Shown in pieces: positions 761-40,918 of a DNA stretch of 40,918 nucleotides. This DNA comes from a virus. Each line of letters opens with the position of its first letter. The stretch's first letter is position 1. The position numbers were made by a program, and so were the translations under genes. A model generated the notes under the pieces. It was not told where the DNA came from, ran no database searches, and worked only from the letters and a program-made list of their open reading frames with translations. The stretch covers positions 1 through 40,918 of the IMG/VR virus record IMGVR_UViG_3300048055_000054, one strand, 5' to 3'.

Positions 761-2205
761 TGAGTGTTACAATAGAAATATACGGGCCGTACAGCACCTT
801 GAAGGGGGACTTCCCCCTAGAGGAGATAAAGCTCGTTACATCGTGGGCGGTAGACGGTGCTAGGTACTCCCCTGCGTTTAAGAAGGGCCTGTGGGATGGC
901 CGTAAGCACCTGTTCAAGCCCAAGACGGGGGCGTTCCCCACGGGACTGATGACCGTCGTTAAAAAGTGTTTAGACGACAGTAAGACAGACTATGATATTG
1001 TTGACCACAGATCACCGCCAGAAGTGGACGGTAACACTTTTGATATTAAAGGAATATCGTTCGCGTATCCGTATGATTACCAACTCGAAACCGCTAAGAA
1101 AATGGTGGAGGCGAAGCGGGGTATAATCAAGATCGCCACCAATGGCGGTAAGGGGATCATCGCTGCATCCGTAATCAACTACTTGAATCTGCGCACCCTG
1201 TTCATCGTACCCAACCGCGAACTGCTGTACCAGTCTGAGAAGGTATTCAAGGACCGACTAGATGTTGTGGACGGAGAGATAGGCCTCATAGGTGATGGGC
1301 ATTGGAACCCCGGGTCCTGGATTACTGTGGCCACTGTAGATACACTGGAATCCCGGTTGGAAAAGGAAGAGTGTGTTAGTTTCCTACACAGCATTGACTT
1401 GGTGTTCTACGATGAAGTACACCGCGCTGGGTCTGAGACCGGGTTCGCAGTATCCACCATGTGCCCTGCGTACTACGCGTTTGGCATGTCAGGCACACCA
1501 AACGACCGGACGGACGGTGCTAACCTCGCAGTCATAGGAGCCTTTGGTGACATCCTTGTTTCTATCGGAAACAAGTTCCTTGTGGATCGGAAGATTAGCG
1601 CCAAGGGCAACATCATCTTCGACAAGGTAACCTCACCTCCAATCCCTAAAAAGACTCCGTATGCCACTGCGTACAAGCAGGGGGTGACAGATAACGAGAC
1701 ACTAAACCAGAAGGTGGTTGACTGGGTCGTAGCCTGTAGAAAGAACGACCTGTCTGTGCTGGTTCTCATAGAAGAGATCGGGCATGGAAAGGCGTTGGAC
1801 CAACTGCTGTGGACTCACACAGGGGACACCTTTATTCCGCACCAGTTTGTGTTCGGGGACGAGTCCACAGAGACACGCCAGCAGGCAATCAAGGTGTTCG
1901 GGGACAGGACGTTGCCTGTGCTCATAGCCAGTACTATTTTTGACGAAGGGATTAACCTACCCACCATAGATGTGCTAATATGTGCGGGTTCCCGCAAGAG
2001 CAAGATTAGGACCATGCAGCGGCTGGGCAGAGGGTTACGCGGTGACAAGCTCATACTTATCGAGTTCTCCAACTTCTGTCACAGCTTCCTGCTTGAGCAC
2101 AGCCTAAAGAGGTACAACGACTACAAGGAAGAACAATGCTTCGATATGTACCGGTCAACCCCCGATGCCGCTTTGATAAAAGAACTATGGAGTAAACCGC
2201 GTTGA
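760..2205 (+). CDS. UvsW-like superfamily 2 DNA helicase
   Basis: This is a 481-aa SF2 helicase resembling phage T4 UvsW, an ATP-dependent enzyme that unwinds recombination and replication intermediates such as R-loops, stalled forks and Holliday junctions. RecA-like domain 1 holds a Walker A region near residues 125-133, a DEVH box at 218-221 and a GMSGTP motif (motif III type) near 247. Domain 2 holds the motif V stretch with DEGINLP and motif VI QRLGRGLRG starting at residue 420. The Walker A loop reads Gly-Gly-Lys-Gly, lacking the usual Ser/Thr after the Lys. The reading frame is open upstream to 682, but I chose ATG 760 because the sequence upstream overlaps the previous gene and 760 gives a TAATG junction. 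Family assignment is confident; the exact UvsW role is inferred. Confidence 0.9.
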   Translation: MSVTIEIYGPYSTLKGDFPLEEIKLVTSWAVDGARYSPAFKKGLWDGRKHLFKPKTGAFPTGLMTVVKKCLDDSKTDYDIVDHRSPPEVDGNTFDIKGISFAYPYDYQLETAKKMVEAKRGIIKIATNGGKGIIAASVINYLNLRTLFIVPNRELLYQSEKVFKDRLDVVDGEIGLIGDGHWNPGSWITVATVDTLESRLEKEECVSFLHSIDLVFYDEVHRAGSETGFAVSTMCPAYYAFGMSGTPNDRTDGANLAVIGAFGDILVSIGNKFLVDRKISAKGNIIFDKVTSPPIPKKTPYATAYKQGVTDNETLNQKVVDWVVACRKNDLSVLVLIEEIGHGKALDQLLWTHTGDTFIPHQFVFGDESTETRQQAIKVFGDRTLPVLIASTIFDEGINLPTIDVLICAGSRKSKIRTMQRLGRGLRGDKLILIEFSNFCHSFLLEHSLKRYNDYKEEQCFDMYRSTPDAALIKELWSKPR

Positions 2206-2420
2206 CCGTCCACTATGTAAAGTACGCACACACAGATGTGGAGTGCGTTCAGGCCTCCGCGTCCAAACTGTCCATAGCGGCCCTAAAGACCAGCTGTAAC
2301 TTGCTAATCGCTAACCTACGGTTTACAGACCTTACCGTAGTCCCTATGAACGTGTCCTGTGCGAAGTGTAAATCTGCTCCAGCGTATGATCTCGACATAC
2401 TAAACCGAGTGTCCCTATGA
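2202..2420 (+). CDS. small His-Cys-CxxC / Leu-tail protein (family member 1)
   Basis: This 72-aa protein has the family plan seen 21 times in the window: His4 or His10, Cys32, CxxC at 53-56 and a C-terminal LNRVSL. The first Cys of CxxC is 20 residues from the end. It is the most divergent copy, since its single Cys is followed by Asn. The start is a TTG that overlaps the helicase TGA. A GGAG lies about nine bases upstream, which favours this start. The last codons, CTA TGA, overlap the ATG of the next gene. A zinc site built from one His and three Cys is inferred from spacing. Function is unknown. Confidence 0.65.
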   Translation: MTVHYVKYAHTDVECVQASASKLSIAALKTSCNLLIANLRFTDLTVVPMNVSCAKCKSAPAYDLDILNRVSL

Positions 2421-3908: not shown

Positions 3909-4100
3909 ATGGCACCCAGGGTGATTCACATGCTCAACGCAACAGGTACCTCTAACTGCGGCAAAGCAGCTACACTAAGCATATACGACGTAGCGTTCAT
4001 GTTAACATTTCTACGTCAGCGCATGTTAATCCCGAACCACACATGTGATGATTGCTACAACATACACACACTACTTACTCTGAAGGAAAGTTTACTATAA
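3909..4100 (+). CDS. small His-Cys-CxxC / Leu-tail protein (family member 2)
   Basis: A 63-aa family member, the shortest copy. It has His7, Cys17-Gly, CxxC at 46-49 and C-terminal LKESLL, with the first Cys of CxxC 18 residues from the end. The start ATG follows the preceding TAG by one base. The terminal Leu codon CTA and stop TAA run straight into the ATG of the DnaB-like helicase, sharing one base (TAATG). The tail between CxxC and the terminus is an amphipathic run of Leu/Ile spaced as in a helix. A zinc site is inferred; function is unknown. Confidence 0.75.
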   Translation: MAPRVIHMLNATGTSNCGKAATLSIYDVAFMLTFLRQRMLIPNHTCDDCYNIHTLLTLKESLL

Positions 4101-5449: not shown

Positions 5450-5795
5450 GGAGATGAAGCCTGTAATAGCCACTGAGAACGACAGCATTTGTAACGAATG
5501 TGTATACCGGGCTACCGTTAAAACGAAGGAGTGGTCTCCTGGGATATTAGTTTGTAGGTGTGACAACTGGGAAGCATTCACGCTAGTCAGCAACACAAAC
5601 GTGAGTGTGACATTCAAGTCGATGGATACGGACGCCTCGGGAGGTGTGATATATTATCCGCTACTAGCCTCCTCCAAGCTAACCAAGGACAAGCTGGTAC
5701 TGAAGAAGATAGTATGTACAATGTGTAAGCGCGACCAGCCTAATTGGCTATTAGACCACAACAAATACATAGCAGCACACTTTAAACACAAATGA
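5412..5795 (+). CDS. Cys-rich putative zinc-binding protein
   Basis: A 127-aa protein overlapping the helicase 3' end by 38 bases. An AAGGAG eight bases before ATG 5412 supports this start. It has four Cys-pair motifs: CSFC near residue 9, CNEC near 27, CRC near 48 and CTMC near 103. The first two could form one treble-clef or ribbon zinc site, the latter two another. The centre is a beta-rich segment without known motifs. Its stop overlaps the ATG of the next small Cys protein (ATGA). It does not have the Leu-tail of the 21-member family, so I keep it separate. Function is unknown; nucleic-acid or protein binding is plausible. Confidence 0.7.
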   Translation: MRRLVTGVCSFCKEMKPVIATENDSICNECVYRATVKTKEWSPGILVCRCDNWEAFTLVSNTNVSVTFKSMDTDASGGVIYYPLLASSKLTKDKLVLKKIVCTMCKRDQPNWLLDHNKYIAAHFKHK

Positions 5796-6034
5796 TACAC
5801 TGTAGAAAACCTGACGGTTTGGCTGGGATATTTGGCGCAGTTGGCCCGTTTGACAGTTGGTTTGGCGGCGCCCCTACATCAATTTGTAATACTAGACCGT
5901 TACTCGACGACATAGTAACCGCTTCACGCTTCGATGAACTGTTAGGGAAGTACGATACGTCCAACCCTGACGAGTTCTGTGCCTCGTGCGTCGGGGTAAG
6001 GACACTGTCTCAACTAAAAAACACATTACTATAA
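5792..6034 (+). CDS. small His-Cys-CxxC / Leu-tail protein (family member 3)
   Basis: An 80-aa family member with His3, Cys32-Asn, CxxC at 63-66 and C-terminal LKNTLL. The first Cys of CxxC is 18 residues from the end. Its ATG overlaps the previous TGA (ATGA). It ends CTA TAA five bases ahead of the primase ATG. A Gly/Pro/Phe-rich stretch at residues 9-28 is unlike the other copies. Zinc binding is inferred; function is unknown. Confidence 0.72.
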   Translation: MIHCRKPDGLAGIFGAVGPFDSWFGGAPTSICNTRPLLDDIVTASRFDELLGKYDTSNPDEFCASCVGVRTLSQLKNTLL

Positions 6035-8083: not shown

Positions 8084-8391
8084 TGCTAAAACTATTCAAT
8101 TTTACTTGCACCCAGTGTACTACAGAGTGGGAAGACCTAGTGGACGCCGAGGGCCTGTCTCCCTGTCCCGACTGCCAAGAAGAGCGTCCACGGGACGCAA
8201 TCTCCTGTCCTAAGTTGGCAACCTTTGCTATGCTGTCCAAGGCAGACAAGGCCACCGCACTAAAGAAGCGGTCAGCTGACCACTCCAAGAAGGAGCTTCG
8301 TAAGGAGGCCGAGCAGTTTGGCTCCTTTGGGAAGCAGCTGGCACGTGAAGGACAAATCCGGTCATTTGGAGGATTGGGGAAGTCACGGTAA
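8083..8391 (+). CDS. FmdB-like zinc-ribbon protein
   Basis: A 102-aa protein with an N-terminal zinc ribbon: CTQC at residues 9-12 and CPDC at about 28-31, with the aromatic and acidic spacing typical of FmdB-type regulatory ribbons. The C-terminal half is Lys/Glu-rich and helical. It ends with a Gly/Ser/Arg-rich tail that could bind nucleic acid. The start shares one base with the previous TAA, and the stop shares one base with the next ATG. FmdB-like ribbons are poorly characterised, so a regulatory or adaptor role is only a guess. Confidence 0.72.
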   Translation: MLKLFNFTCTQCTTEWEDLVDAEGLSPCPDCQEERPRDAISCPKLATFAMLSKADKATALKKRSADHSKKELRKEAEQFGSFGKQLAREGQIRSFGGLGKSR

Positions 8392-8612
8392 TGCAAGTGG
8401 TGAAAGATCCTAGGCACTACGTAGACCTACAGATGCCTCACCATTTCAAGCACAGGGCAGCCACGGACCAACGATCCCTGTGCGGCATCCATCTCCAAAT
8501 AAGGGGCAATAAAACACAACCAGCAAAGTGGACACACACGGAAAGCCGCGTAACATGTACAACATGCAGAGAAATATTACCGATTGTACAACTTAAGAAT
8601 ACAGTGCTATGA
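8391..8612 (+). CDS. small His-Cys-CxxC / Leu-tail protein (family member 4)
   Basis: A 73-aa copy with a His cluster at 17-21, Cys31-Gly, CxxC at 56-59 and C-terminal LKNTVL. The first Cys of CxxC is 18 residues from the end. The final CTA TGA contains the ATG of DNA polymerase (8609), a classic four-base stop/start overlap. It is thus translated immediately before the polymerase. Zinc binding is inferred from spacing; function is unknown. Confidence 0.78.
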   Translation: MQVVKDPRHYVDLQMPHHFKHRAATDQRSLCGIHLQIRGNKTQPAKWTHTESRVTCTTCREILPIVQLKNTVL

Positions 8613-12245: not shown

Positions 12246-12470
12246 ATGCTAAAGCACGGATACTATCATTCGTACTCAAAGGAGTTTGCTGCGAAGGACG
12301 CAGCGCTTGGTTGGTACAGTCTGTGTGGCGTGCCCTATGCTAATTCTTCAACCAAGTTTCACGGATGGCGGGTAGACCGCCACAAGCTCAGTGTTGTACG
12401 GCGCCACATAGACTGTTCAGACTGCATCAGTCTGTTACTACTGCACGAGCTTAAAACTAGTAAGTTATAA
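12246..12470 (+). CDS. small His-Cys-CxxC / Leu-tail protein (family member 5)
   Basis: A 74-aa copy with His4/His8, Cys27-Gly, CxxC at 57-60 and C-terminal LKTSKL. The first Cys of CxxC is 18 residues from the end. The last codons are TTA TAA. It lies between the SSB hairpin and RecA, 30 bases ahead of the RecA start. This copy is not preceded by an overlapping gene; no clear Shine-Dalgarno sequence is visible because the hairpin sits immediately upstream. Function is unknown. Confidence 0.75.
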   Translation: MLKHGYYHSYSKEFAAKDAALGWYSLCGVPYANSSTKFHGWRVDRHKLSVVRRHIDCSDCISLLLLHELKTSKL

Positions 12471-16371: not shown

Positions 16372-16758
16372 ATGGCAGCAGCTAATCCCACACCAGTGGT
16401 AGACATGACCACGAGTGAAGTCTTTTTCAAGTCCGCAGCGGATCTCACTAGGTCTATTTTCCTCAGAATCAACGATGAACTAGCCCCTGAGTTGGACGCA
16501 TTTATGATCGAGGTTGACGGAGAACTCCAGGGGCTGGACTCCAAGCAGGTGGCCACGCTATTGTTATCCATTTCGATAGGCAAGGCGCTAGGTCCGAAGG
16601 CGATGCTGCTAAAGAACTCGTTGGACCGCGCAGTCAGTGTTACGAATGAAATAGAAGCCCTTAGCTACGTAGTAAACAACCTAAACAACGAAGTACTCTA
16701 CAAACTTGATTTAAGCCTACTAAAACGATATGGGTTCAAAACGAAAAAAGCCGTTTGA
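16372..16758 (+). CDS. hypothetical protein, 128 aa
   Basis: The ATG lies one base after the gp46-like TAG. It is a soluble, mainly helical protein with alternating hydrophobic and acidic stretches and a Lys/Arg-rich C-terminus. It has no Cys, no membrane segment and no motif I recognise. The 3' end overlaps the next small Cys gene by 29 bases. Context suggests an accessory to recombination or nucleotide metabolism, but nothing in the sequence shows it. Confidence 0.62.
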   Translation: MAAANPTPVVDMTTSEVFFKSAADLTRSIFLRINDELAPELDAFMIEVDGELQGLDSKQVATLLLSISIGKALGPKAMLLKNSLDRAVSVTNEIEALSYVVNNLNNEVLYKLDLSLLKRYGFKTKKAV

Positions 16759-16963
16759 AACGTGGCACATAGTCCCCTACGCCACATTCGTGCGTGACTT
16801 ACCGCAACGGAAGTTTGTAGGCTACTGTGGTGTTGCGTTACGGATCTCACAACCTGAAACGACTTGGACTGTTACCGACAGCACCTACAGCCGGGTTAGG
16901 ATTAGATGCCCGATCTGTAGTGGAGCGGTTGTTTTGGAAGAGCTAGGAGAGGCTAAACTATGA
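16730..16963 (+). CDS. small His-Cys-CxxC / Leu-tail protein (family member 6)
   Basis: A 77-aa copy with His13, Cys33-Gly, CxxC at 60-63 and C-terminal LGEAKL. The first Cys of CxxC is 18 residues from the end. The N-terminus is Lys/Arg-rich. It starts inside the previous gene, and its final CTA TGA contains the ATG of the dNMP kinase. Function is unknown. Confidence 0.76.
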   Translation: MGSKRKKPFETWHIVPYATFVRDLPQRKFVGYCGVALRISQPETTWTVTDSTYSRVRIRCPICSGAVVLEELGEAKL

Positions 16964-20207: not shown

Positions 20208-21010
20208 AACGTATAGCCTTCACAATAGGTGGAGATCACGGGGCGTTGTATGATGTACGCGACCGCCTAATCAAGCTGGGCTACTGGCTTGTCCCTGAGG
20301 GTAGTACCGACCCAGCCCCTGACTTCCGTGTATACGGTGGAGCCCCCTACGAGTACAACGGGGATATCGACATAGCCTGTCTACTAAGGGAATGTCCTGA
20401 CTTCCGTGTCCCTACGATAGTTCTGTCTAGTGGGGATGTCTATTCCGACGTTGAGGACAAGAAGGTTCCGTTCAAGGAGGATGACATGTTAATCGTCCCC
20501 TCGGTATACGACAGTGATTTGTGCAACGTGTTGTATTCCCTGATAGCAGAGAACTACTTTCTAGAAGCAGGTGGCCAGACGCTAGTGCTCCGTACGTTTA
20601 ACCTGTACGGGGCAGGGGCCAAAGGGACCATCCGGAATATGTTCCGGCGTCTCGATCGGAAGGAACAGATAGTAATACCTCCCCCTGGGTACCAAGTCAA
20701 CACGTGGTTGCACATTGACGACTTCCTCTCCGCGATAGAGAAGTTAATACCCAAGTTCCTAAAAGGGGCACAGGGGGTGTACAACATCGGGTCCAAGGAG
20801 GAAATCAGCTACAACCGACTGGCTGACTCCGTTTGGCAGCTTGTGCATACCGATGGGTCTGCTACACTCACTACGCCTAATCCAAGGTGGGTGCAGCCCT
20901 GGTACACAGTACCTGACATTACTAGAATCCAAGCGTTGCTTAACTGGAAGCCACAAATATCAATACGGAAGGGATTGTGGATGCATGTTAACCAAAAAAC
21001 GAATGTATAG
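20204..21010 (+). CDS. degenerate NAD-dependent epimerase/dehydratase-like (extended SDR) protein
   Basis: A 268-aa relative of nucleotide-sugar epimerases. Recognisable elements are TIVLSSGDVYSD (around 71-82), LRTFNLYG (about 129-136), an HIDD stretch, YNIGS and a C-terminal LNWKP block. The N-terminal Gly motif is loose (IGGDHGAL). At the catalytic site Tyr102 is present, but the Lys of YxxxK is replaced by Leu106. The region between the first strands is much shortened. It may therefore be catalytically dead or a binding protein. Phage epimerases usually serve surface or DNA glycosylation. It overlaps the next small Cys gene by 26 bases. Confidence 0.7.
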   Translation: MKRIAFTIGGDHGALYDVRDRLIKLGYWLVPEGSTDPAPDFRVYGGAPYEYNGDIDIACLLRECPDFRVPTIVLSSGDVYSDVEDKKVPFKEDDMLIVPSVYDSDLCNVLYSLIAENYFLEAGGQTLVLRTFNLYGAGAKGTIRNMFRRLDRKEQIVIPPPGYQVNTWLHIDDFLSAIEKLIPKFLKGAQGVYNIGSKEEISYNRLADSVWQLVHTDGSATLTTPNPRWVQPWYTVPDITRIQALLNWKPQISIRKGLWMHVNQKTNV

Positions 21011-21227
21011 GGGAACGTGGGCTAACCACATTTCTGAGGGCGGTAGACTTCTGTGTGGTAGGCCGTTCTACGCCCAATACCCCACGGCGTACACTGACGG
21101 TTCGGGGCGTAGGCCGTTTCCTAGCATTTCCTACGGTACTCTAGCGAGTTACAGCAGACTAACAATCAACTGTGCAGATTGCTGTGCAATTCTACCATTA
21201 AGACAACTAAGGAGTGTTCAACTATGA
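20985..21227 (+). CDS. small His-Cys-CxxC / Leu-tail protein (family member 7)
   Basis: An 80-aa copy from ATG 20985 (ATG 21003 would remove six residues). It has His15, Cys24-Gly, CxxC at 63-66 and C-terminal LRSVQL. The first Cys of CxxC is 18 residues from the end. The middle is Tyr/Ser/Thr/Arg-rich. The final CTA TGA contains the ATG of the Dam-like methyltransferase. Zinc binding is inferred; function is unknown. Confidence 0.74.
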   Translation: MLTKKRMYRGTWANHISEGGRLLCGRPFYAQYPTAYTDGSGRRPFPSISYGTLASYSRLTINCADCCAILPLRQLRSVQL

Positions 21228-28269: not shown

Positions 28270-31200
28270 GTGGCAACATTCACAGTCACGACAGCACAGA
28301 ACATAGATGAGCTTGCGTCGAAGGCCGGAAACGACACCTACAACGTCAACGGTGGATTCCTCACCGTCGATCAGGACAGCCGCTATGGGCTGAACCAGAC
28401 CACGAGTGCCATTCTTGGCGCCATGACCCTGTCGGCCACGCTGGGCGGCACCGTTGAGTTCAACGCGACGAAGGTCAGGCTGATCCCCTACGACGCAGGC
28501 GGTGGCAACGTCCCAGCGTTGAACACTTCGATCACTGGCGCCGCCGGTTCGGGAAAACTGATCGCAGTCTACGCAACGCTGACATCGGCACCCACAGCCG
28601 TTGCGTCTCCGATGCCAGCCGCCGGATTCATCAAGATCAAACAGTGGAACGACGGAGCCTACGTCGATAACGAGGCGCTAGGTGGACTTACCGCAACGGT
28701 TGACGGCACAGACCGGGTGGGCTGGATCGAGATCGTTGGAGGCGATACCAGGAGCGTCACTGTCAACCGGCTCTCCACTTTTCGGGTTCGCGGCGAGTGG
28801 TATGACCTCGGCACAACCGATGGCGCGCGTGCGACGACGTACCAGATGCCGACGAATGGCAGCACGGTCAACTACTTCCCAGGTGTGTGGGTCGAGACTG
28901 CGGCCAGCTCGGGAGTCTACGAGTTCTACCCGTGTGCAGGGTCAGCTGCGGCCTTGATCACGGTATTCGCGACCGATGAGTTTCGCGGCAGGGTGTGCTG
29001 GGTCACGACCTCAACGGGCGAGGTCCGGTTTGGTCACGACGGCGCGAATCTAACTGGTGGGTTTATCCCGGAGACAGGCCGCAAGATTCGCGTGCCCAAC
29101 ATCTTCTTTGTCAACGCGACGCTCGCCGCACCAACGGTCAACGTCCTGCCGGCGGCGTCGCTTGGAAATCGTTACGAGTTCAACACCAGCGGCGGCGGCG
29201 TTCTCGACATCGACAAGGTACTGTGCAACTGGTACCTCAACATCCTCCAGGCCTACAGCGTGACGCTGTCACACGTCGGGGTCATGACGGCCCTTGTTGC
29301 CAACGAGACCGCGACGTTTAGTGTTTGGAGCCACGTCGGGGTTGGGCAGGAGGCGGCCAACACCCAGAACGGACTCACGCTGGGACGCACTTTCGCGGGC
29401 GGCACGCTGACGGACTGCGTTTGGACTCGCGCGAACGCCAGCACCGGGATGGTGCTCACCGACGCGGGCGGGTTCACATTCGTTCGTGTGCGCACGCACA
29501 CCTTCGGAAGCATCCGGTCTAGTAGCAGCGGCAGCATGAGCTGCACTCGCGTGAAGGACTGCACGTGGGAGGATTGTACTTATATCGGCGGTCGCGTGCT
29601 TCTCACGACTTGTTTCGATCTAGCTTTCACCGACACCCACTACGCGGACAACACGCGCGGAAACACGATCAGCACGCAAGTGCAGTACATGTTCGACTGC
29701 GCCTCCGGGACAAAGGGCGTCACGTTAGACGGCGCAGACTTCGCAGGGTTGTTGTTGACTCAGCCGTACAGTGGAATCCTGAGGGTGGCATCGGGGAGCG
29801 AAGCCATCAAGCTTCGCAACATCGGAACAGCGGCGGAACCGCAGTCACTGGGATCGGCGCAGCGTGACTTGGTGGCGTGGACACGCGTCACGACGACCGC
29901 GACAGTTACCAGCGTTGCTCACGGACTCGAAACCGGAAACTACGTATACGCCGTATACTCCAACAGTATTGCGGCGATCATTGTTGGCAACAAGCAGGTC
30001 ACAGTAACTGACGCCAACACATTCACGTTCACATGCCTCAACGCGGGTGCAGCATCGGGCACGATTAGCTACTGGGGCGTGATGTCCAGCAACCTTTTTG
30101 TCGTCTCAAACGCGTCGTCAGCTAAAAACATCCGGGTCCAGCGCTGCTACACACAGCACACACGCTCCACCAACTCTTTCTTCACGGTGGACAACAGCTC
30201 CAGAGGTTTGGTTTTAGAGAACGTGCCGAACGCGTTTTCTAGCTTGTTTGTTACATCAGCCCTCAACATGTCGATCCGTGGCGGGTCGGGCACTTCGGCG
30301 TTGACGGCTCAAACGTCAGTCTACGGGACGCACTGGCTAGACTGGCTAAGCGGCAGCGTGACACCGAACGTCGCGGCTCAGTCGTGGACACGCGCCACGA
30401 CGACCGCGACAGTTACGTCCACGGGCCACGGGATACGAACCGGCCGCCAAGTACTTGTGACCGTGACCAGTGACGTGGCGGCGATCGTGCTCGGGCTGAA
30501 GACGATCACGGCAGACGACGCCAACACATTCACGTTCACATGCCTCAACGCGGGTGCGGCATCAGGGACTCTCACGTTCGTTCCGTTGGTGGCCCAAATG
30601 GCCCTGATGATGAACGAGGAGACGGCCGAGACTGCCTCCCAAGTCACGATTGAATCAGGGACGCCGGGGTTCACGTCGAGGGGCAATCTGTCGATGCCCA
30701 CCATCGGGGACCGCGTGATGTTTGAGCAACCCGACTACGTGATCGGCCACACCGGGTTTCCGATCGCCGAGCCGGTAATGGCGGGTGGTGTGACCAACAA
30801 CCACGACCTCAAGTATGCGATCGACTTGAACGACGGCGCAGGGTTCAGCGCATATAAGAATTTGCGTTACACCCGACTGGGCGGCGGCGGCAGTGCGGCT
30901 TCCACGACTGTCACAATGACCTCAACCACCGGAGTCGCAGACAATGACTACATCTTCGGCACAGGCGTCGCACCGCTGGCCTACGTCGTGTCTGTTGATA
31001 GTGGAACCGATATCACGGTCAGCGCGGTAAACACCGCCACCGTTTCGGGGACGCTTAGATTTTGCCAGTTGCCGTCGCAAACCGGGATTGATGCCGAGCT
31101 TGGTTTCAAGCTGCGGGCGACGATTGAGACTGTGGTCACTAGCACCTCCGCGATCAATTCGCTGTATTGGTTCACGACCACGACCGACGTATCCAGGGCG

Positions 31201-31521
31201 TACCAGTACCCACTCGACCTCGCGCCCGTGGTGGTGAAAGTATACGACGCAGTCACAGGCGCCCCAATCGAAGATGTTCGCATTAGGCTTGAGGCAGCAG
31301 CGGGCGGCCCAGCGACACCCGGTGATCTAATCCTCACGGGCACCACAAACGTATCTGGCGTGCTGTCCGGAGTCGTCTCATTCGTAGGCGACCAGCCGGT
31401 TTCTGGGCGGGTGAGACGCGCCACCGCTGGGCTTGGCACGCGATACAAGGCAGGTATAATCTCGGCCACGATCACGCTCGACGGGATGGACGTGACCGCC
31501 CTGCTGATTTCGGACGAATAA
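28270..31521 (+). CDS. large virion/tail-fibre-like structural protein, 1083 aa
   Basis: A 1083-aa Ala/Thr/Gly/Val-rich beta protein, starting at a GTG behind a G-rich ribosome site (ACGGGGGG). Two internal domains of about 65 residues, encoded at ~29.88 and ~30.38 kb, are clear duplicates: each begins WTR-TTTATVTS, has an AHG or GHG, and ends FTFTCLNAGAASGT. The C-terminal 130 residues resemble an Ig-like/carboxypeptidase-regulatory fold (PVVVKVYDAVTG...), a common adhesin module. It is strongly G/C-biased at third positions. Likely a long tail fibre or adhesin. The exact virion position is unknown. Confidence 0.75.
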   Translation: MATFTVTTAQNIDELASKAGNDTYNVNGGFLTVDQDSRYGLNQTTSAILGAMTLSATLGGTVEFNATKVRLIPYDAGGGNVPALNTSITGAAGSGKLIAVYATLTSAPTAVASPMPAAGFIKIKQWNDGAYVDNEALGGLTATVDGTDRVGWIEIVGGDTRSVTVNRLSTFRVRGEWYDLGTTDGARATTYQMPTNGSTVNYFPGVWVETAASSGVYEFYPCAGSAAALITVFATDEFRGRVCWVTTSTGEVRFGHDGANLTGGFIPETGRKIRVPNIFFVNATLAAPTVNVLPAASLGNRYEFNTSGGGVLDIDKVLCNWYLNILQAYSVTLSHVGVMTALVANETATFSVWSHVGVGQEAANTQNGLTLGRTFAGGTLTDCVWTRANASTGMVLTDAGGFTFVRVRTHTFGSIRSSSSGSMSCTRVKDCTWEDCTYIGGRVLLTTCFDLAFTDTHYADNTRGNTISTQVQYMFDCASGTKGVTLDGADFAGLLLTQPYSGILRVASGSEAIKLRNIGTAAEPQSLGSAQRDLVAWTRVTTTATVTSVAHGLETGNYVYAVYSNSIAAIIVGNKQVTVTDANTFTFTCLNAGAASGTISYWGVMSSNLFVVSNASSAKNIRVQRCYTQHTRSTNSFFTVDNSSRGLVLENVPNAFSSLFVTSALNMSIRGGSGTSALTAQTSVYGTHWLDWLSGSVTPNVAAQSWTRATTTATVTSTGHGIRTGRQVLVTVTSDVAAIVLGLKTITADDANTFTFTCLNAGAASGTLTFVPLVAQMALMMNEETAETASQVTIESGTPGFTSRGNLSMPTIGDRVMFEQPDYVIGHTGFPIAEPVMAGGVTNNHDLKYAIDLNDGAGFSAYKNLRYTRLGGGGSAASTTVTMTSTTGVADNDYIFGTGVAPLAYVVSVDSGTDITVSAVNTATVSGTLRFCQLPSQTGIDAELGFKLRATIETVVTSTSAINSLYWFTTTTDVSRAYQYPLDLAPVVVKVYDAVTGAPIEDVRIRLEAAAGGPATPGDLILTGTTNVSGVLSGVVSFVGDQPVSGRVRRATAGLGTRYKAGIISATITLDGMDVTALLISDE
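29876..30075 (+). repeat. intragenic domain repeat, copy 1
   Basis: This is the first of two duplicated ~65-residue domains inside the large structural gene; the second spans about 30384-30575. DNA identity is very high over the segment encoding FTFTCLNAGAASGT and over the GACGACCGCGACAGTTAC stretch, lower between. The pattern suggests duplication followed by drift, or gene conversion at the conserved ends. Confidence 0.75.
30384..30575 (+). repeat. intragenic domain repeat, copy 2
   Basis: This is the second copy of the duplicated beta domain starting WTRATTTATVTS. It differs mainly in the middle strand, while both ends keep nearly identical DNA with copy 1. The spacing between copies is about 510 bases. 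Confidence 0.75.
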
Positions 31522-34471: not shown

Positions 34472-36208
34472 ATGTCAAACAACCCTAACATACACATTGC
34501 TACCCCCGTTATCAAACCAGAGGACTTAACGGAGAACACGGCTAGGTTTTTAGCTAAGGACTCGTTTCCTCTGTGGGCACTGGCAAATGGGTTCAGCGTA
34601 GATGGGTCTCCGTTCAACTTTGACAATTTCAAATACATGTTTCCTATTTACGCTGATCCTTCACATGAAATTATTTTAGCCAAAGGAGCACAAACTGGTG
34701 CCACAATCTACCAGATTTTGAAGCTGCTATACCACGCTGCCACCAATCCAGCAAGCAAGAGTGCTCTGTATCTCCCCACGGATAGCCTTGTGATATCCAT
34801 GATGAAGGACCGATTTATCCCCATCATCCAGTCTTCACCTGCGATTGGTCCTACGTTTGATACAAACTCAAGTCTAGCTTTGCTACAGTTCGGTAACAAG
34901 TCCAGTATTTACGCGTTCTCTGTAGCAGGTAAGTCTGCTAAGGATAGTCTACCTATTTCTGGTTTAATCTGTGTAGATGAAACGCGCCTTATCCCTGACG
35001 CCGCTATACCTCAAATACGGGAGCGACAAAGCGCCCAAATGATTAAGCGCTTCGTGACGATGTCAACTGTGGGGCTACCAGGCCAGAATATTGACCGCTT
35101 TTACAACGCAGGAACCCAACATGTTTGGCAAGCACGTTGTGGCTGCAAGGATGGTTGCGACCTTCCGAGAACCTGGCCGGATTGTGTCGCGGATGACCCC
35201 AAGCGCGGTGTTTACTACAGGTGCCCTAAGTGTTTGTGGAGGATTAACGACACCCAGAACGGGCGATTCGTCCCACATAACCCTGGTGCCCCCTACAACT
35301 CCTACCATGTGTCACAACTAAACTCTCGGTTCATGTCCTTAAAAGAGATTTGGCAATCGTACAAAACAACCACCAACATCGCGGAGTGGTGGAATGCTAA
35401 GGCGGGTCTCCCATATATTAACTCGGACGCCAGGGGCGTGACCCATGACCAACTAATGGCCTGCGTGTCCACTGAGGAGCGCTGGACTAAGAAGAAACTA
35501 GGCAACGGCTGTGCCATGGGAGTAGACCAGGGTGCTGGCTACGTCATGGTGGTTATCGCAGACATCTCACCCAGCAATGGTAAGAAGCGGATCCGCCACA
35601 TCGAGATTATCGAGAACACCAACCACGACTACATGGAGAACGGCCAACGCGTAACACCGTTCAAGCGACTCCGGGAACTCATGGTAGAGTTTGATGTACG
35701 CTTGGCGTTGTGCGACGGGCTACCCAACTTCAATGACGCCCTACAATTCGCTCAGTCTCACCCTTCCCGGGTATTCCTGGCGTACTACATGAGAGACGCA
35801 AAACACGTAGTCCAGTGGTCAGATAAGAAGAAGGGGCTAGAATCCATCAGGAAAGCCGGTTCCCTACTCAGGTTCAAGTATAACGCGTTGTTAAACCGCT
35901 ATACGTCTTTAGAGACCATGCTGTCTACGTGGTCCAACGGAGACGTAATATGCCCCGATCCTAACGGATTGGTACAGACGTGTATGGACGAGGGAACCAA
36001 GGCGATGATGCCAGAGGCTGTTTGTAGGCGCTTGTTCACTCACCTAACCCGTCTAATCCGTAACTACAAGGAATCCAACCCGGAGACAGGGGAAGGGCGC
36101 TACGAGTGGCTGTATACGCAAGGCGACCCCCACCTAGCCCACGCATGTAACTACTGCTTTATCGCGTTGGAGCGTATGAAGCGAACAGCCGGGTTCTCGT
36201 TCCTCTAA
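34472..36208 (+). CDS. terminase large subunit, GpA type
   Basis: A 578-aa DNA packaging motor/nuclease like lambda GpA. The deviant Walker A KGAQTGAT starts at Lys71, with the catalytic Lys at the front of the loop as in GpA. Walker B is Asp169-Glu170. A zinc-binding insert has Cys223-Gly-Cys and CPKC at 251-254. Nuclease acidic residues are Asp352 (GVDQG), Asp415 (CDGLPNF) and Asp552 near the end. Length is close to GpA-type terminases. It starts five bases after the ParB-like gene, and its TAA overlaps the stop of a convergent minus-strand gene. Portal and capsid genes do not follow, which is unusual. Confidence 0.92.
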   Translation: MSNNPNIHIATPVIKPEDLTENTARFLAKDSFPLWALANGFSVDGSPFNFDNFKYMFPIYADPSHEIILAKGAQTGATIYQILKLLYHAATNPASKSALYLPTDSLVISMMKDRFIPIIQSSPAIGPTFDTNSSLALLQFGNKSSIYAFSVAGKSAKDSLPISGLICVDETRLIPDAAIPQIRERQSAQMIKRFVTMSTVGLPGQNIDRFYNAGTQHVWQARCGCKDGCDLPRTWPDCVADDPKRGVYYRCPKCLWRINDTQNGRFVPHNPGAPYNSYHVSQLNSRFMSLKEIWQSYKTTTNIAEWWNAKAGLPYINSDARGVTHDQLMACVSTEERWTKKKLGNGCAMGVDQGAGYVMVVIADISPSNGKKRIRHIEIIENTNHDYMENGQRVTPFKRLRELMVEFDVRLALCDGLPNFNDALQFAQSHPSRVFLAYYMRDAKHVVQWSDKKKGLESIRKAGSLLRFKYNALLNRYTSLETMLSTWSNGDVICPDPNGLVQTCMDEGTKAMMPEAVCRRLFTHLTRLIRNYKESNPETGEGRYEWLYTQGDPHLAHACNYCFIALERMKRTAGFSFL

Positions 36209-36408
36209 AGAGTCGCAGCGTTCAGCCTGGTTAGCAGTGTTAACGGGTGCTGGTCACACACAGGACAAAGTACCTGAAAGAGGTGGGCGTATTTTACAAG
36301 GCCAAGGGTCTCTGAGTCAACGTTGGCACAAGTATAACGGAAGGAAGCGCCACACAGTGGCGTTGCTGGGTACGTATCTAGACCCAGTAAGTGGCCGACT
36401 TGCGTCAT
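36205..36408 (-). CDS. small His-Cys-CxxC / Leu-tail protein (family member 8)
   Basis: A 67-aa copy: His6, Cys19-Gly, CxxC at 48-51 and C-terminal LNAATL, with the first Cys of CxxC 20 residues from the end. It is the last gene of the leftward array and ends tail-to-tail with terminase, overlapping by four bases. Its ATG overlaps the previous stop (ATGA). Final Leu is CTT, an exception to the CTA/TTA rule, consistent with there being no following start to overlap. Confidence 0.76.
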   Translation of the reverse strand: MTQVGHLLGLDTYPATPLCGASFRYTCANVDSETLGLVKYAHLFQVLCPVCDQHPLTLLTRLNAATL

Positions 36409-36641
36409 AGTTCCGCCATCCCCAGTTCAATAAGTGTTACCAACTCCGACTTTTCACACAGTGGGCACAACCCACGACCAGGAGTTTGCAAAACATCTTT
36501 TATCTTTGCTAAGTTCCATGTGTCACCATGCCTGTTACCTATGTAGTAGTAGTGATCCCTGGTAATAGCCCCACAGAAACCTTCTCGCGCCTCACTCTCC
36601 TTGTCGTAATTTTCTACTGTGACTAAGTGTATTGTTATCAT
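36405..36641 (-). CDS. small His-Cys-CxxC / Leu-tail protein (family member 9, tandem unit)
   Basis: A 78-aa unit of the four-copy tandem cluster. His5, Cys23-Gly, CxxC 59-62, C-terminal LGMAEL. Shared blocks with its neighbours are IHLV, YYYIG, TWNLAKIK and CPLC. Its stop overlaps the ATG of the next gene. It is the most divergent unit of the four, reading GAITRD where the others read GTST. Confidence 0.8.
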   Translation of the reverse strand: MITIHLVTVENYDKESEAREGFCGAITRDHYYYIGNRHGDTWNLAKIKDVLQTPGRGLCPLCEKSELVTLIELGMAEL

Positions 36642-36874
36642 AGTTCCGCCATCCCCAGTTCAATAAGTGTTACTTCGCTAGATGCTTCACACAAGGGGCA
36701 CAACTCCTCGAAAGGAGTTATGAGACTAGCCTTTATCCTTGCTAAGTTCCATGGGGATTGGTGCTTACCTGCACCTATGTAGTAGTAATCCTGGGTACTA
36801 GTCCCACAGAAACCTTCTTGCGGCCCCTTCTCCTTGTCGTAACTTTCTGCTGAAACTAAGTGTACTATTATCAT
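36638..36874 (-). CDS. small His-Cys-CxxC / Leu-tail protein (family member 10, tandem unit)
   Basis: A 78-aa unit: His5, Cys23-Gly, CxxC 59-62, C-terminal LGMAEL. It shares YYYIGAGKHQSPWNLA-like blocks with the unit at 37107. DNA identity to its neighbours is highest at the 3' end (the first ~35 bases in window orientation). Start and stop both overlap by four bases. Confidence 0.8.
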   Translation of the reverse strand: MIIVHLVSAESYDKEKGPQEGFCGTSTQDYYYIGAGKHQSPWNLARIKASLITPFEELCPLCEASSEVTLIELGMAEL

Positions 36875-37110
36875 AGTTCCGCCATCCCCAGTTCAATAAG
36901 TGTTACTTCACTAGCTGCCTTACACACAGAGCACAACTCCTGGCCAGGAGTTTGCAGACTAGTTTTTATCCTTGCTAAGTTCCATGTGCCAGAGTACCCG
37001 GCACCTATGTAGAAGTAATCGTTGGTGCTGGTCCCACAGAAAACTTCTAGCAGCCCTCCAATCTTCTTGTCGTAGGTTTCTGCTGAAACTAAGTGTATTA
37101 CTTCCTTCAT
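36871..37110 (-). CDS. small His-Cys-CxxC / Leu-tail protein (family member 11, tandem unit)
   Basis: A 79-aa unit: His6, Cys25-Gly, CxxC 60-63 (CSVC), C-terminal LGMAEL. The N-terminal MKEV and AETYD are shared with the unit at 37107, indicating these two are closest at the 5' end, while the 3' half groups with the unit at 36638. This patchwork suggests gene conversion between units. Confidence 0.8.
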   Translation of the reverse strand: MKEVIHLVSAETYDKKIGGLLEVFCGTSTNDYFYIGAGYSGTWNLARIKTSLQTPGQELCSVCKAASEVTLIELGMAEL

Positions 37111-37349
37111 AGTTCTGCCATCCCCAGTTCAATAAGTGTTACCAACTCCGACTTTTCACACAAAGGGCACAACCCATAGTGATGGCTACGCACGCTAGTT
37201 TTTATCTTTGCTAAGTTCCATGGGGATTGGTGCTTACTCGCACCTATGTAGTAGTAATCGTTGGTACTAGTCCCACAGAAACCCTCCATCGGCCCTCCCA
37301 CCTCCACGTCGTAGGTTTCTGCTGAAACTAAGTGCATTACTTCCTTCAT
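37107..37349 (-). CDS. small His-Cys-CxxC / Leu-tail protein (family member 12, tandem unit)
   Basis: An 80-aa unit: His6, Cys25-Gly, CxxC 61-64, C-terminal LGMAEL. It is the first unit downstream of the RNA ligase, whose TAA shares one base with this ATG (TAATG). Its C-terminal CEKSELVTLIE matches the unit at 36405, again mixing identities. Confidence 0.8.
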   Translation of the reverse strand: MKEVMHLVSAETYDVEVGGPMEGFCGTSTNDYYYIGASKHQSPWNLAKIKTSVRSHHYGLCPLCEKSELVTLIELGMAEL

Positions 37350-38365
37350 TACAATGCCTCTCTAATCCTGCCAAGGAACCACGCGCGACTCTTGGAGCTA
37401 ACTACCGCTCCTACGTCTTTCCGTCCCAGCCCAGAGATTTCCATACGCTCTAGTTCTTCTTTCCAAATGTCCCCTTTGATCCATTTGATGTATGGACCCA
37501 GAGAGTACTTATCCAAGGGTAGGTTATTCTCCCTTAAATAAGATACGCCCTGCTCCAACCGGGCCTCCGTAACAACCATTTCCACGAAGTCCATGATAGT
37601 GTCCGCCTTCTCCGTGGTCATTTCAATCGGGGCTTTCGCTACAGTGACCTTGTGGCGCTCTCCCTTGGTCTTAAACCAGAAACCGGGGCCAGTGTACCCT
37701 GGAGTGCTAACGTGCCACACAAGGCCCTCTCCGATGCCCGTAGCGCCATTCAGCTTGGCATAGGGACACTCGTTCTCCACCTGCTGTGTGATGGCGTTCA
37801 ACTCGGTCGCTACGTTCCCTGCGTGGGACATGTCTGCAATGATGGTAAAGACACCTGGAGACGTGATTGTGTCAATACCGGCATCAGGGGTCCACAGCCG
37901 GAGCTTGGTAATGTCAAACCAAGTATTACTTGTAAGTCCTTTCACCGCAAAGTAAACAAAGCGCTTACTAAGTGTGCTAATACCTACACCCTTTTGAATG
38001 CCCTCACCACACCACTCCCCGAAGATTACACAGGGCTCACCAAACTGTGTCTCTGCCACACACAGTAACTCCTTGAAATCCTTATGGTTTCCCGGTTTGT
38101 GGACGTGGGTGGCAAACCCCATATTGTCGTCGATGTTGGATAACACACGTGACCGGGACATACAGACGACCTTGTTGTTCTCGTCTAGGTACACACCTGC
38201 GTTGGTCCCATGGAGCTTTACGGTGCCCACCAGGGTTAGCGTAGGTAACATACGAGTGATATCGTAGATTGGTTTATCTTCTTCGTCCATTCCGGTGAAG
38301 TACGCGGTGGACTTGATTTGCTTGTAGAAACTCTTGAACGACTCGATTGACGGGAATTTATGCAT
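37349..38365 (-). CDS. Rnl2-like RNA ligase
   Basis: A 338-aa ATP-dependent RNA ligase. The nucleotidyl-transferase core has motif I KLHGTN with catalytic Lys50, motif III-type FGEWCGEG with Glu117, motif IV EGLVWH near 210 and motif V FKTKGERH near 230. A helical C-terminal domain of ~90 residues follows. The order fits the T4 Rnl2/editing ligase family, which seals 3'-OH/5'-phosphate nicks in RNA, often repairing tRNAs cut by host defences. AGGAG lies five bases before the ATG. It is the only recognisable enzyme among the small Cys proteins of the leftward operon, so it is probably coexpressed with them. No polynucleotide kinase/phosphatase gene is visible here. Confidence 0.88.
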   Translation of the reverse strand: MHKFPSIESFKSFYKQIKSTAYFTGMDEEDKPIYDITRMLPTLTLVGTVKLHGTNAGVYLDENNKVVCMSRSRVLSNIDDNMGFATHVHKPGNHKDFKELLCVAETQFGEPCVIFGEWCGEGIQKGVGISTLSKRFVYFAVKGLTSNTWFDITKLRLWTPDAGIDTITSPGVFTIIADMSHAGNVATELNAITQQVENECPYAKLNGATGIGEGLVWHVSTPGYTGPGFWFKTKGERHKVTVAKAPIEMTTEKADTIMDFVEMVVTEARLEQGVSYLRENNLPLDKYSLGPYIKWIKGDIWKEELERMEISGLGRKDVGAVVSSKSRAWFLGRIREAL

Positions 38366-38409: not shown

Positions 38410-38706
38410 TTATAGAACACTGCTCTTTAGTACAAGTAACGCTGTAGCAGCTGGTTGTAGCTCGTTACAGACCTCACAGTATATTTTACCCTGGTCCAAG
38501 TACAACGTGATATTATCGCAGTGGGCAATCAGTACGAGCCAACTACCACTCCTGGATCTACGATTAAATTCTTCTGGGCTCCACTGTCTAGACCCCGGTA
38601 TTTTTATCCCGCATAAGGTAGTAATAGTGGTTTCGTCGTGGGGGTTTTTTTCATCGTACTCGTACGACAAGGTAACATGCTCCGTTGTGAACCTGTACTC
38701 AGTCAT
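38410..38706 (-). CDS. small His-Cys-CxxC / Leu-tail protein (family member 13)
   Basis: A 98-aa copy, the longest one: His10, Cys32-Gly, CxxC 77-80, C-terminal LKSSVL, first Cys of CxxC 22 residues from the end. The frame is open to 38739, but the ATG at 38706 overlaps the previous stop by four bases, so I chose it. The region between Cys32 and CxxC holds a Ser/Arg-rich and a beta segment. Confidence 0.74.
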   Translation of the reverse strand: MTEYRFTTEHVTLSYEYDEKNPHDETTITTLCGIKIPGSRQWSPEEFNRRSRSGSWLVLIAHCDNITLYLDQGKIYCEVCNELQPAATALLVLKSSVL

Positions 38707-38972
38707 AACATTGTTTGTCCTAGTAAGATTAGGGGCCATGCCACTTCTAGTTTAACTGCACACGTGGAGCACTTGACGTGCAGCCCTCTTGTTTCCCTCC
38801 TGGCCACTATCCGCGATGCGATGCCCGTTACAGCTATGTGAGTAACCACGCCGTTGTAACAGAAGTACAGTACAGATTCACCACAAAGTGTGCGAATCCG
38901 CTGACCTGTACACAACCGGTTGACCTTTTCACTACACAGATGGTCTGTTATAAACATTGGTTCGTCAGTCAT
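38703..38972 (-). CDS. small His-Cys-CxxC / Leu-tail protein (family member 14)
   Basis: An 89-aa copy: His11, Cys30-Gly, CxxC 68-71, C-terminal LGQTML, first Cys of CxxC 22 residues from the end. Two extra Cys lie at 13 and 21. I chose ATG 38972, with GGAGG seven bases upstream and a four-base overlap with the previous stop, over the longer frame from 39017. Confidence 0.76.
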   Translation of the reverse strand: MTDEPMFITDHLCSEKVNRLCTGQRIRTLCGESVLYFCYNGVVTHIAVTGIASRIVARRETRGLHVKCSTCAVKLEVAWPLILLGQTML

Positions 38973-39196
38973 AACATTGCCTCCTTTAGTACGTGTATGT
39001 GGAGAAGGTTCATGCATTGCCTACAACGTACGTAGCTGTCATACCAATCCATTATGGCTGGATTTGTCTTTATATCCTTCAAGCACAGATCTAACTCCAA
39101 CTGTTTTCCCCCGCTAAGAAACTCCACACCACAGATGGAGGTGTGGATAATACGGCTGTACCGGATGGTTGCCCCTGTTATTACGTGCTCATGCAT
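38969..39196 (-). CDS. small His-Cys-CxxC / Leu-tail protein (family member 15)
   Basis: A 75-aa copy from ATG 39196 (a GTG at 39211 is an alternative). His2/His4, Cys22-Gly, CxxC 58-61, C-terminal LKEAML, first Cys of CxxC 18 residues from the end. Final TTA TGA overlaps the next ATG. Its start overlaps the coiled-coil gene's end by eight bases. Confidence 0.74.
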   Translation of the reverse strand: MHEHVITGATIRYSRIIHTSICGVEFLSGGKQLELDLCLKDIKTNPAIMDWYDSYVRCRQCMNLLHIHVLKEAML

Positions 39197-39440
39197 TGCA
39201 GCTGGACTCACGGAACTTTTCTAACTCGTTGAAAAGTAGTGCCAGGTCTTTAGATGTGAGGTTCCCCATGAGGTAAGCGTCTGGCTCCCAGGCCCAGCAG
39301 CACTCCAAGGCCTCCCGCAGGGTGTTCCTGCCTTTGGGCAAAGGGCCATCTGGTTGCGGAGGGTAAACCATCTCCTCAAGTTCTGCCGCCCACTTCTCCA
39401 ACTCGTTGTATTTTTGTTGTAGTAGTTCTAGTTCTGTCAT
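39189..39440 (-). CDS. coiled-coil small protein, 83 aa
   Basis: Residues 1-25 form a Leu/Glu-rich amphipathic helix. The remainder is a compact domain with Trp-Ala-Trp and a second helix near the end. It has Cys residues but lacks the His-Cys-CxxC/Leu-tail plan. TAGGAG precedes the ATG. It is the only non-family small gene inside the leftward array, and its function is unknown. Confidence 0.68.
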   Translation of the reverse strand: MTELELLQQKYNELEKWAAELEEMVYPPQPDGPLPKGRNTLREALECCWAWEPDAYLMGNLTSKDLALLFNELEKFRESSCNA

Positions 39441-39447
39441 GGGGCTC

Positions 39448-39681
39448 CTATAGTACAGCGTCTTTCAATTTAACCAAGCAGCGTACTTCATTGCACTTTT
39501 CACAAAGGATTGTTCCGAACCGCTCTGCCTCTGACCCCATTGCGGCTATTGTGTAGTGGCTACTACCTGATGTATAACGCACCGGCCCGCGCACCACCGG
39601 TTCGTTACAAAGTGTGCGATAGGGGTGCTCCTGTGTCTGTGACACCAAGTGATCTGCGGAGTACGCTGGTTGTCTTTCCAT
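39448..39681 (-). CDS. small His-Cys-CxxC / Leu-tail protein (family member 16, triplet unit)
   Basis: A 77-aa copy: His11 in SADHL, Cys25-Asn, CxxC 60-63 (CEKC), C-terminal LKDAVL, first Cys of CxxC 18 residues from the end. It is nearly identical over its 3' half to the two following family genes. Its ribosome site is TAGGAG in the repeated spacer. Confidence 0.8.
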   Translation of the reverse strand: MERQPAYSADHLVSQTQEHPYRTLCNEPVVRGPVRYTSGSSHYTIAAMGSEAERFGTILCEKCNEVRCLVKLKDAVL

Positions 39682-39688
39682 GGGGCTC

Positions 39689-39940
39689 CTATAGTACAGC
39701 GTCTTTCAATGTAACCAAAATGCGTGCTTCATTGCACTTTTCACAAAGGATTGTTCCGAACTGTTCTACCTCCGACCTCATCTCGGCTATTGTGTAGTGG
39801 CTACTACCTGATGTAGTGAGCGACCACCGGCTCGTCACCGATTCGTTACAAAGTGTGGGGTAGCGATGACGCTCGACCACCCCCCTGCCACCTGTGTCTT
39901 GGGCCAAGTGATCCGCAGAGTGCTTTGGTTGTCTTTCCAT
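39689..39940 (-). CDS. small His-Cys-CxxC / Leu-tail protein (family member 17, triplet unit)
   Basis: An 83-aa copy: His11 in SADHL, Cys31-Asn, CxxC 66-69 (CEKC), C-terminal LKDAVL. It shares its first five residues and its ribosome site spacer with member 16. A short insert (GGRGVVERH) lengthens the loop ahead of Cys31. Confidence 0.8.
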   Translation of the reverse strand: MERQPKHSADHLAQDTGGRGVVERHRYPTLCNESVTSRWSLTTSGSSHYTIAEMRSEVEQFGTILCEKCNEARILVTLKDAVL

Positions 39941-39947
39941 GGGGCTC

Positions 39948-40226
39948 CTATAGTACAGCGTCTTTCAATGTAACCAAGCAGCGTACTTCACTGCACTTTT
40001 CACAAAGGATTGTCCCGAACCGCTCTACCTCCGACTCCACCTCGGCTAGTGTGTAGTGGTAGTTGCCTGCTGTAACAATCTCTGGAAGGCTCGTCACCAA
40101 TTTGTTACAAAATGTGAGATAGCGGCCGTGGTCAGTCAACCCGCTGTCCCCCGGGTCCTGTACCAAGTGGTCCGCGGAGTACGTTATTTCTTCTTCTTCT
40201 AGAGGCGAGCGTTCTTCAGTTGCCAT
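39948..40226 (-). CDS. small His-Cys-CxxC / Leu-tail protein (family member 18, triplet unit)
   Basis: A 92-aa copy from ATG 40226, with AAAGGA upstream; the longer frame from 40262 lies inside the previous gene. It adds an acidic N-terminal extension (EEEE) before the shared SADHL. His20, Cys40-Asn, CxxC 75-78, C-terminal LKDAVL. The start overlaps the previous gene by 28 bases. Confidence 0.76.
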   Translation of the reverse strand: MATEERSPLEEEEITYSADHLVQDPGDSGLTDHGRYLTFCNKLVTSLPEIVTAGNYHYTLAEVESEVERFGTILCEKCSEVRCLVTLKDAVL

Positions 40227-40444
40227 AAGCACCAATCCTTTGATAGCATGCAATCCAAACAATCAACGTCACCTGACGTGTCCGTGAAGTTCTTGCGGGT
40301 ACAAATATCTGAGTTGTAAAATATCTTGAGTGGGGCTGCTTGGCCGCACAGGGCCACGTACGCCTCATCCACGTGTGACCGGGTCGCGTGTGTTAGTAGG
40401 TTTACTCGTCTGTACAGTATCTTTTCAATTTCGGTTACGGGCAT
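40199..40444 (-). CDS. small His-Cys-CxxC / Leu-tail protein (family member 19)
   Basis: An 81-aa copy: His19, Cys33-Gly, CxxC 62-65, C-terminal LKNARL, first Cys of CxxC 20 residues from the end. It has an additional Cys near the tail. The N-terminal helix is basic. The stop codons of this copy are CTC TAG, another exception to the CTA/TTA ending. The next start lies upstream, inside it. Confidence 0.75.
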   Translation of the reverse strand: MPVTEIEKILYRRVNLLTHATRSHVDEAYVALCGQAAPLKIFYNSDICTRKNFTDTSGDVDCLDCMLSKDWCLWQLKNARL

Positions 40445-40471: not shown

Positions 40472-40735
40472 TTACAAGATGTTCCTCTTCAGTTCCAAGA
40501 GGGTTACCTCCGGGTACTCTCTGTACAGAATTTCCTCACACACTTTACAGTGAACCATGAGGTTTCCATCATCATCCTCTTCTTCCCGGTACCACGAGCT
40601 ATCACCGGTCAGTATGACTGACAGGACAGCTTGATAGTTGCGTGGCGGTTTACTACACAGCGCGATTTCGTGTGGGTCCCTACTTATGCACCTCTCTGAT
40701 GTCCCTTTTGGTGTCCGTTTTGATGCCAGTTTCAT
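40472..40735 (-). CDS. small His-Cys-CxxC / Leu-tail protein (family member 20)
   Basis: An 87-aa copy: His22, Cys27-Ser, CxxC 63-66, C-terminal LKRNIL, first Cys of CxxC 25 residues from the end. The N-terminus is Lys/Arg/Ser-rich. A Glu/Asp run lies before the CxxC. Its ATG overlaps the stop of the partial gene upstream (ATGA). It ends TTG TAA and is followed by a 27-base gap. Confidence 0.75.
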   Translation of the reverse strand: MKLASKRTPKGTSERCISRDPHEIALCSKPPRNYQAVLSVILTGDSSWYREEEDDDGNLMVHCKVCEEILYREYPEVTLLELKRNIL

Positions 40736-40918
40736 AACACCGCCTTCTTTAGCTCTTTGAGTAGTAGCTGTGGATTCTCAGCGTAGAGTACGTCTGCACA
40801 CGCTCCACAGCGTGGAAAGTCTGGATTATACCAGGTACTCCTACCGATCAGTACGTAGCGCAGGATTGCGTCGTAATCAAACTCGTCAGCTAGGTAGCCA
40901 CAGAGTCTAGCAGAACCG
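40732..40918 (-). CDS. small His-Cys-CxxC / Leu-tail protein (family member 21, 5' end outside window)
   Basis: The frame is open to the right edge; 61 C-terminal residues are visible. Cys6-Gly and the CxxC at visible positions 37-40 are present, and the protein ends LKKAVL, with the first Cys of CxxC 25 residues from the end, the same spacing as member 20. The WYNPDF segment before CxxC resembles the WYREEE of member 20, so these two are closest relatives. The array therefore continues beyond the window. Confidence 0.72.
   Translation of the reverse strand, partial: GSARLCGYLADEFDYDAILRYVLIGRSTWYNPDFPRCGACADVLYAENPQLLLKELKKAVL

Follow-up and report, generated by a model that had tools for sequence, protein, structure and literature searches.

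Under toxIN pressure, phage T4 amplifies dmd-tifA in tandem, with breakpoints at microhomologies of 6-10 bp (PMC9391042). In phage T6, SegB promotes amplification of anti-defence loci (PMC13096335). Both are cases of amplification for dosage. The gene accordion of poxvirus K3L (Elde 2012, as cited in PMC9391042) is a tandem expansion that may precede divergence of the copies. Phage gene amplification is usually viewed as a transient gain in dosage. Here we describe a virus record of 40,918 bp, a fragment of an uncultured tailed phage that was analysed over its whole length (the window), in which one family of mini-proteins fills a third of the genes of a 41-kb fragment. This wider family is the main finding, and a tandem array at 36405-37349 (array A) is its youngest layer.

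About 63 genes were predicted on the fragment. The plus strand carries a replication block, and tail and packaging genes are present as well. On the minus strand, a leftward operon faces the terminase gene and continues past the record end, with array A at its distal end. The following features of this region lie outside the mini-protein family:

34472-36208, TerL, convergent with the leftward operon
37349..38365 (-), RNA ligase (PHROG 548, E=3.7e-54), within the leftward operon
39189..39440 (-), small ORF of 83 aa between family members in the operon, of charged, coiled-coil-like composition and without kinship to the family

The RNA ligase (37349-38365) had a match in only one of the compared relatives, G013, at a different location. 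Elsewhere in the window, a direct repeat of 507-bp spacing (29876-30569; 77-79% identical) lies within an ORF of 1083 aa (28270-31521), and a separate multi-CxxC protein is encoded at 5412-5795 (+), with orthologues at the same place in G001 and G005 and similar ORFs in G003, G004, G009 and L167. An Rfam search of 30-40.9 kb returned zero matches, a promoter scan gave matches at chance level, and a TerL scan across bacterial and archaeal genomes revealed no host and no prophage.

The first-pass annotation had described positions 36405-37349 as a four-copy tandem repeat, and the repeat analyses confirmed this. TRF reported a ~233-bp unit present in 4.0 copies at 36405-37339 (score 929; alternative description 2 x 469-bp), and direct repeat searches agreed on four units at 36405-37349. 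The units are arranged head to tail, measure 233, 233, 236 and 243 bp, and each coincides exactly with a single ORF of 78-80 aa on the minus strand:

37107..37349 (-), array A unit 1 (A1), 80 aa, with H6, C25, C61 and C64; its start lies at the stop of the RNA ligase gene
36871..37110 (-), array A unit 2 (A2), 79 aa; overlaps unit 1 by ATGA
36638..36874 (-), array A unit 3 (A3), 78 aa; ATGA overlap
36405..36641 (-), array A unit 4 (A4), 78 aa; ATGA overlap

The stop of each ORF overlaps the next start as ATGA. The near-identical 3' ends of about 35 bases reported earlier were found as a common block of 36 nt, GTAACACTTATTGAACTGGGGATGGCRGAACTATGA (coding strand), with one differing position. 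Pairwise alignment of the units showed nucleotide identities of 71-82% and differences at 27-41% of residues, and dS between units was 0.26-0.40; at this level of divergence, the earlier description of the amplification as "fresh" does not hold.

The tree grouping of the units varied along their length. Informative sites at positions 4-89 (the first third) supported the grouping A1A2|A3A4, those at ~122-126 supported A1A3|A2A4, and those at 173-206 supported A1A4|A2A3. Five topology switches were observed compared to 13.1 expected (P = 1.5e-4, site shuffle), and the switching of the nearest relative was also significant in the stricter codon shuffle (P = 0.0035), in which the A1/A4 tract reached an uncorrected P of 0.012. 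Since such clustering of sites is unlikely under random order in both the site and the codon shuffle, the earlier claims that the nearest relative of a unit shifts along its length, and that gene conversion or unequal crossing over has acted between units, are well founded. These results support array A as a tandem gene array with recombination between copies (conversion or unequal crossing over). The 3' block was also considered as a conversion tract or special recombination site in its own right. This was dropped, because synonymous variation affected 1/10 codons in the block versus 3/21 of the units' other invariant codons (P = 1), so that its synonymous conservation is no higher than theirs.

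A second tandem array of the same mini-protein family, with three copies, was located at 39448-40226 (-):

39948..40226 (-), array B unit 1; in the repeat search, the dN/dS set and the leave-one-out profile
39689..39940 (-), array B unit 2, 83 aa; in the same three analyses
39448..39681 (-), array B unit 3, 77 aa; E=1.8e-7 in the leave-one-out search that excluded array B

These units have their 3' ends and an intergenic RBS in common (TATAGGAGCCCCATG), and units B2/B3 also have their first codons in common. The family as a whole numbers about 21 (21 of ~63 genes) and follows the pattern H...(L/F/Y)C(G/N)...CxxC...LxxL(K/G)xxxL-stop. Fourteen members, including arrays A and B, lie in the leftward operon facing the terminase gene. 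A profile built from these 14 found the other seven, which lie on the plus strand between replication and structural genes, most of them between replication genes. Leave-one-group-out profile searches were run against 8,707 background ORFs, and the members outside the arrays, with their leave-one-out E-values unless otherwise stated, are as follows:

36205..36408 (-), divergent fifth member, 67 aa, the last operon gene, convergent with TerL; E=1.9e-4
38410..38706 (-), family member; E=0.0038
38703..38972 (-), family member; E=7e-5
38969..39211 (-), family member, start uncertain; E=0.071, assigned partly on architecture
40199..40444 (-), family member, 81 aa; E=1e-5
40472..40735 (-), family member, 87 aa; E=0.0079
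40732..40917 (-), family member cut by the record end, N-terminal part missing; E=0.88, assigned on architecture
2202..2420 (+), degenerate member, 72 aa, TTG start, after a helicase gene at a junction closed in relatives; E=0.045 (model without 2202..2420), no better than the best non-member
3909..4100 (+), family member, 63 aa, flanked by syntenic genes and preceding the DnaB-like helicase; E=0.081
5792..6034 (+), family member, 80 aa, before a primase-like gene; E=0.0099
8391..8612 (+), family member, 73 aa, preceding the DNA polymerase gene; E=0.0017 (model without 8391..8612), leave-one-out 1.8e-5
12246..12470 (+), family member, 74 aa; E=3.5e-4
16730..16963 (+), family member, 77 aa; E=3e-6; structure model m6ace1d0479fa
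21003..21227 (+), family member, 74 aa; E=0.065

Array A was recovered with E-values of 8e-6 to 2.5e-9 and array B with 3e-5 to 1.8e-7, and most single window members had E<0.01. The members at 2202, 3909, 21003, 38969 and 40732 were not individually significant by profile; they are borderline or worse, and their membership rests partly on architecture and position. The top non-member in the leave-one-out searches, the multi-CxxC protein at G005 103099 (orthologue at window 5412-5795), was weighed and left out of the family. A C-terminal leucine was present in all 21 members, whereas among the 42 other genes there were 4 (P = 5e-13, a value inflated by array copies and in part by the way the family is defined), and YTA was the last codon in 18 of 21 (P = 1e-7, a value inflated by the non-independence of array copies and by the family definition). 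Judged by the collinear relatives G004 and G005 (166-169 kb), the fragment appears to cover about a quarter of the genome, so the count of 21 members is a lower bound.

Relatives were gathered with a TerL profile; their replication and/or packaging regions are collinear with those of the window, at ~26-60% amino-acid identity. The matching junctions of collinear relatives held no family member. Three junctions leave no room for a member: in relatives, the genes on either side of 2202 and of 3909 lie 7-105 bp apart (at 3909, the gap is 19-105 bp in five relatives), and those on either side of 5792 overlap each other in G001 and G005. Profile searches of the relatives revealed members in G002 only (IMGVR_UViG_3300007871_000068). 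The family is absent from most relatives; the closed junctions are direct evidence of this, while each absence from an incomplete contig is weak evidence. Our use of "lineage-specific" rests on absence in incomplete contigs, the expansion being known from one record and a few members from one relative.

G002 carries 5 members, which all lie downstream of TerL on the leftward strand; of these, 3-4 had leave-one-out E<0.01 and one (26784-27068) was not individually significant. Two of the five form an ATGA-coupled tandem pair with a common CP[DE]CLAS[DS]ELGLD near the 3' end. The member at L105:5585-6013 (-), G002 ~23084-23512, is fused to a ~60-aa palm fragment of a family A DNA polymerase (TGRLSSSQPN...ADYAALE), which matched PF00476 with E=3.3e-7, below the curated cutoff, and PDB Pol I entries with E=3.5e-4; this fusion is possibly a polymerase decoy or a recombination product. 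Beyond the relatives, no family member occurred in another 75 loci (1.05 Mb in total) that surround related DNA polymerase genes. Viral contig scans with the single protein and the array profile of the array A unit returned nothing, and with the G002 subtype as query the only match was G002 itself. A DNA pattern for CxxCxxHPDYxLxL found G002 plus unrelated phage genes only, and tblastn of the members against 50,697 phage records gave chance-level matches only; on inspection, those in Kuravirus XT73, Mycobacterium phage Daishi, Lactococcus phage LW81 and Vibrio phage PG28 proved to be ORFs without kinship to the family or the reverse strand of a different gene. A possible parallel, similar H...TLCG...CxxC proteins in actinophages, was set aside as unconfirmed.

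Profile searches of the members against Pfam, PHROGs and PDB sequences yielded no match above threshold, including to zinc-finger/ribbon families. PADLOC matched none of the 21 aligned members to defence proteins, comparison of member models with solved (PDB) and viral (BFVD) folds gave no match, and no description of such a family was found in the literature. Weak matches to PHROG 15583 and PHROG 22805 covered LCG...CxxC (E=0.0041 for 8391-8612; E=0.011 for the 142-aa member of G002); this part of the family is alignable with them, and the single-member matches are below any confident threshold. Judged by their conserved cysteines and histidines, the members probably bind zinc, the proposed ligands being the N-terminal His, the Cys of the LCG turn and the CxxC leading into the C-terminal helix. 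AlphaFold (AF2) models of A1 (pLDDT 72) and 16730-16963 (pLDDT 74), both of medium confidence, present the same order of elements: a strand beside the His is followed by a helix and a second strand, then by the CG turn, a further strand, and the CxxC opening the C-terminal helix. This predicted order could fit a treble-clef-like zinc fold.

The dN/dS comparison proposed in the first-pass annotation gave whole-gene values of 0.54-0.95 in array A, and array B gave 0.54-0.99. The intervals were wide, exceeding 1 at the upper end in most pairs, and none lay wholly above 1. Such values are far from strong purifying selection and appear compatible with diversification around a fixed core, with positive selection unproven. 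Recent amplification, with selection for either dosage or diversity, had been suggested for array A; neither the recency nor the dosage part was supported, and the extent of residue differences between copies favours diversity. An arms-race reading of the array A genes is plausible as a hypothesis.

We give about half of our credence to the following explanation: a lineage-specific expansion of ~21 tiny, probably zinc-binding proteins, which arose by junction and tandem duplication and by recombination and serve as diversified binders of host targets. Duplication within the phage would have dispersed copies into the junctions of co-oriented gene blocks, and at two sites tandem duplication produced arrays A and B. 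ATGA stop/start overlaps join many copies to their neighbours, so that these genes are probably translated in a coupled manner. Exchange between tandem copies, which has statistical support in array A, would reshuffle the loops that lie between the fixed metal ligands and the helix, and the loops may thereby diversify around an invariant metal core (dN/dS 0.54-0.99). The proteins would act as diversified small binders of host targets in host takeover or counter-defence, and the selected trait would be repertoire diversity, not dosage. A further idea, tentative and in our view doubtful, is that the family amounts to a combinatorial repertoire from one undescribed mini zinc scaffold, seeded into junctions across the genome and with loops reshuffled in the tandem arrays. 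A third of the fragment's genes would then be variants of one protein, as a viral counterpart of recognition repertoires that diversify. If the copies bind different host proteins, they would constitute a naturally occurring collection of small binders of host proteins and would directly test how new genes arise in phages. The family would also aid the annotation of small uncharacterised phage proteins.

Small CxxC proteins are frequently nucleic-acid binding, and the main functional rival holds that the members are nucleic-acid-binding accessory factors for phage replication or recombination, duplicated and specialised for each partner. The placement of most of the seven plus-strand members between replication genes and the fusion of a G002 member to a polymerase palm fragment are in keeping with such a role. 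However, collinear relatives carry the replication genes without members, the array loops vary freely with no conserved basic patch, and the leftward operon has twice the member count of the plus strand; we consider a replication-machinery role rather improbable. A selfish or passive ORF family, which invades gene junctions, multiplies by recombination at ATGA/leucine-codon ends and is tolerated as harmless, seems less probable again. It would account for insertions located exactly at junctions closed in relatives with unbroken neighbours, for the recurrence of YTA-stop ends, for whole-gene dN/dS of 0.54-0.99 and for the lack of the family in most relatives. Yet the C/CxxC/Leu core is strictly kept in nearly all copies, which indicates selection on the protein and argues against pure neutrality, and the sole truncated copy is the one cut by the record end. 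Furthermore, no endonuclease or transposase was recognised in the units, and no flanking repeats common to the members outside the arrays were found.

Ordinary dosage amplification of one inhibitor, like T4 tifA or poxvirus K3L, is a very unlikely account of array A. Head-to-tail copies of one small phage gene do arise fast under defence pressure (PMC9391042; PMC13096335), but dosage amplifications are near-identical, whereas the array A copies differ at 27-41% of residues with dS of 0.26-0.40, and the unit coincides exactly with a single ORF, which leaves no space for its own promoter. The record derives from a metagenome, and an assembly or sequencing artefact is for this reason conceivable but extremely improbable, since the units differ by 18-29% yet keep open, coupled frames, and since array B and the tandem pair in the independent contig G002 share the same design.

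DksA has a two-CxxC arrangement, unlike the H-x~18-C-x~35-CxxC spacing of the present family, and no TraR/DksA family match to the members was obtained in profile searches. TraR/DksA-type proteins of phages and plasmids (PMC9239242) nevertheless resemble the proposed host-target binders in being small, in carrying a zinc motif and in acting on a host enzyme. The T4 dmd-tifA amplification is alike in that recombination produced tandem copies of a locus containing a phage gene of 85 aa, in occurring in a lytic phage and in involving small accessory proteins, but its copies are recent and serve dosage, whereas those of array A are diverged, mosaic and gene-exact, and belong to a family dispersed over the fragment (PMC9391042). 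The T6 SegB system (PMC13096335) likewise shows phage recombination expanding accessory loci; in the phage fragment, by comparison, a homing endonuclease was recognised neither within the arrays nor next to them, and only protein ORFs are repeated. Poxvirus K3L, as cited in PMC9391042, shares the tandem expansion, but the class of virus differs, and no transient stage is visible in the phage fragment. Array A, which is filed apart from dosage amplifications because it fails their defining feature of near-identity, would by analogy resemble a later, diversified stage of such an amplification.
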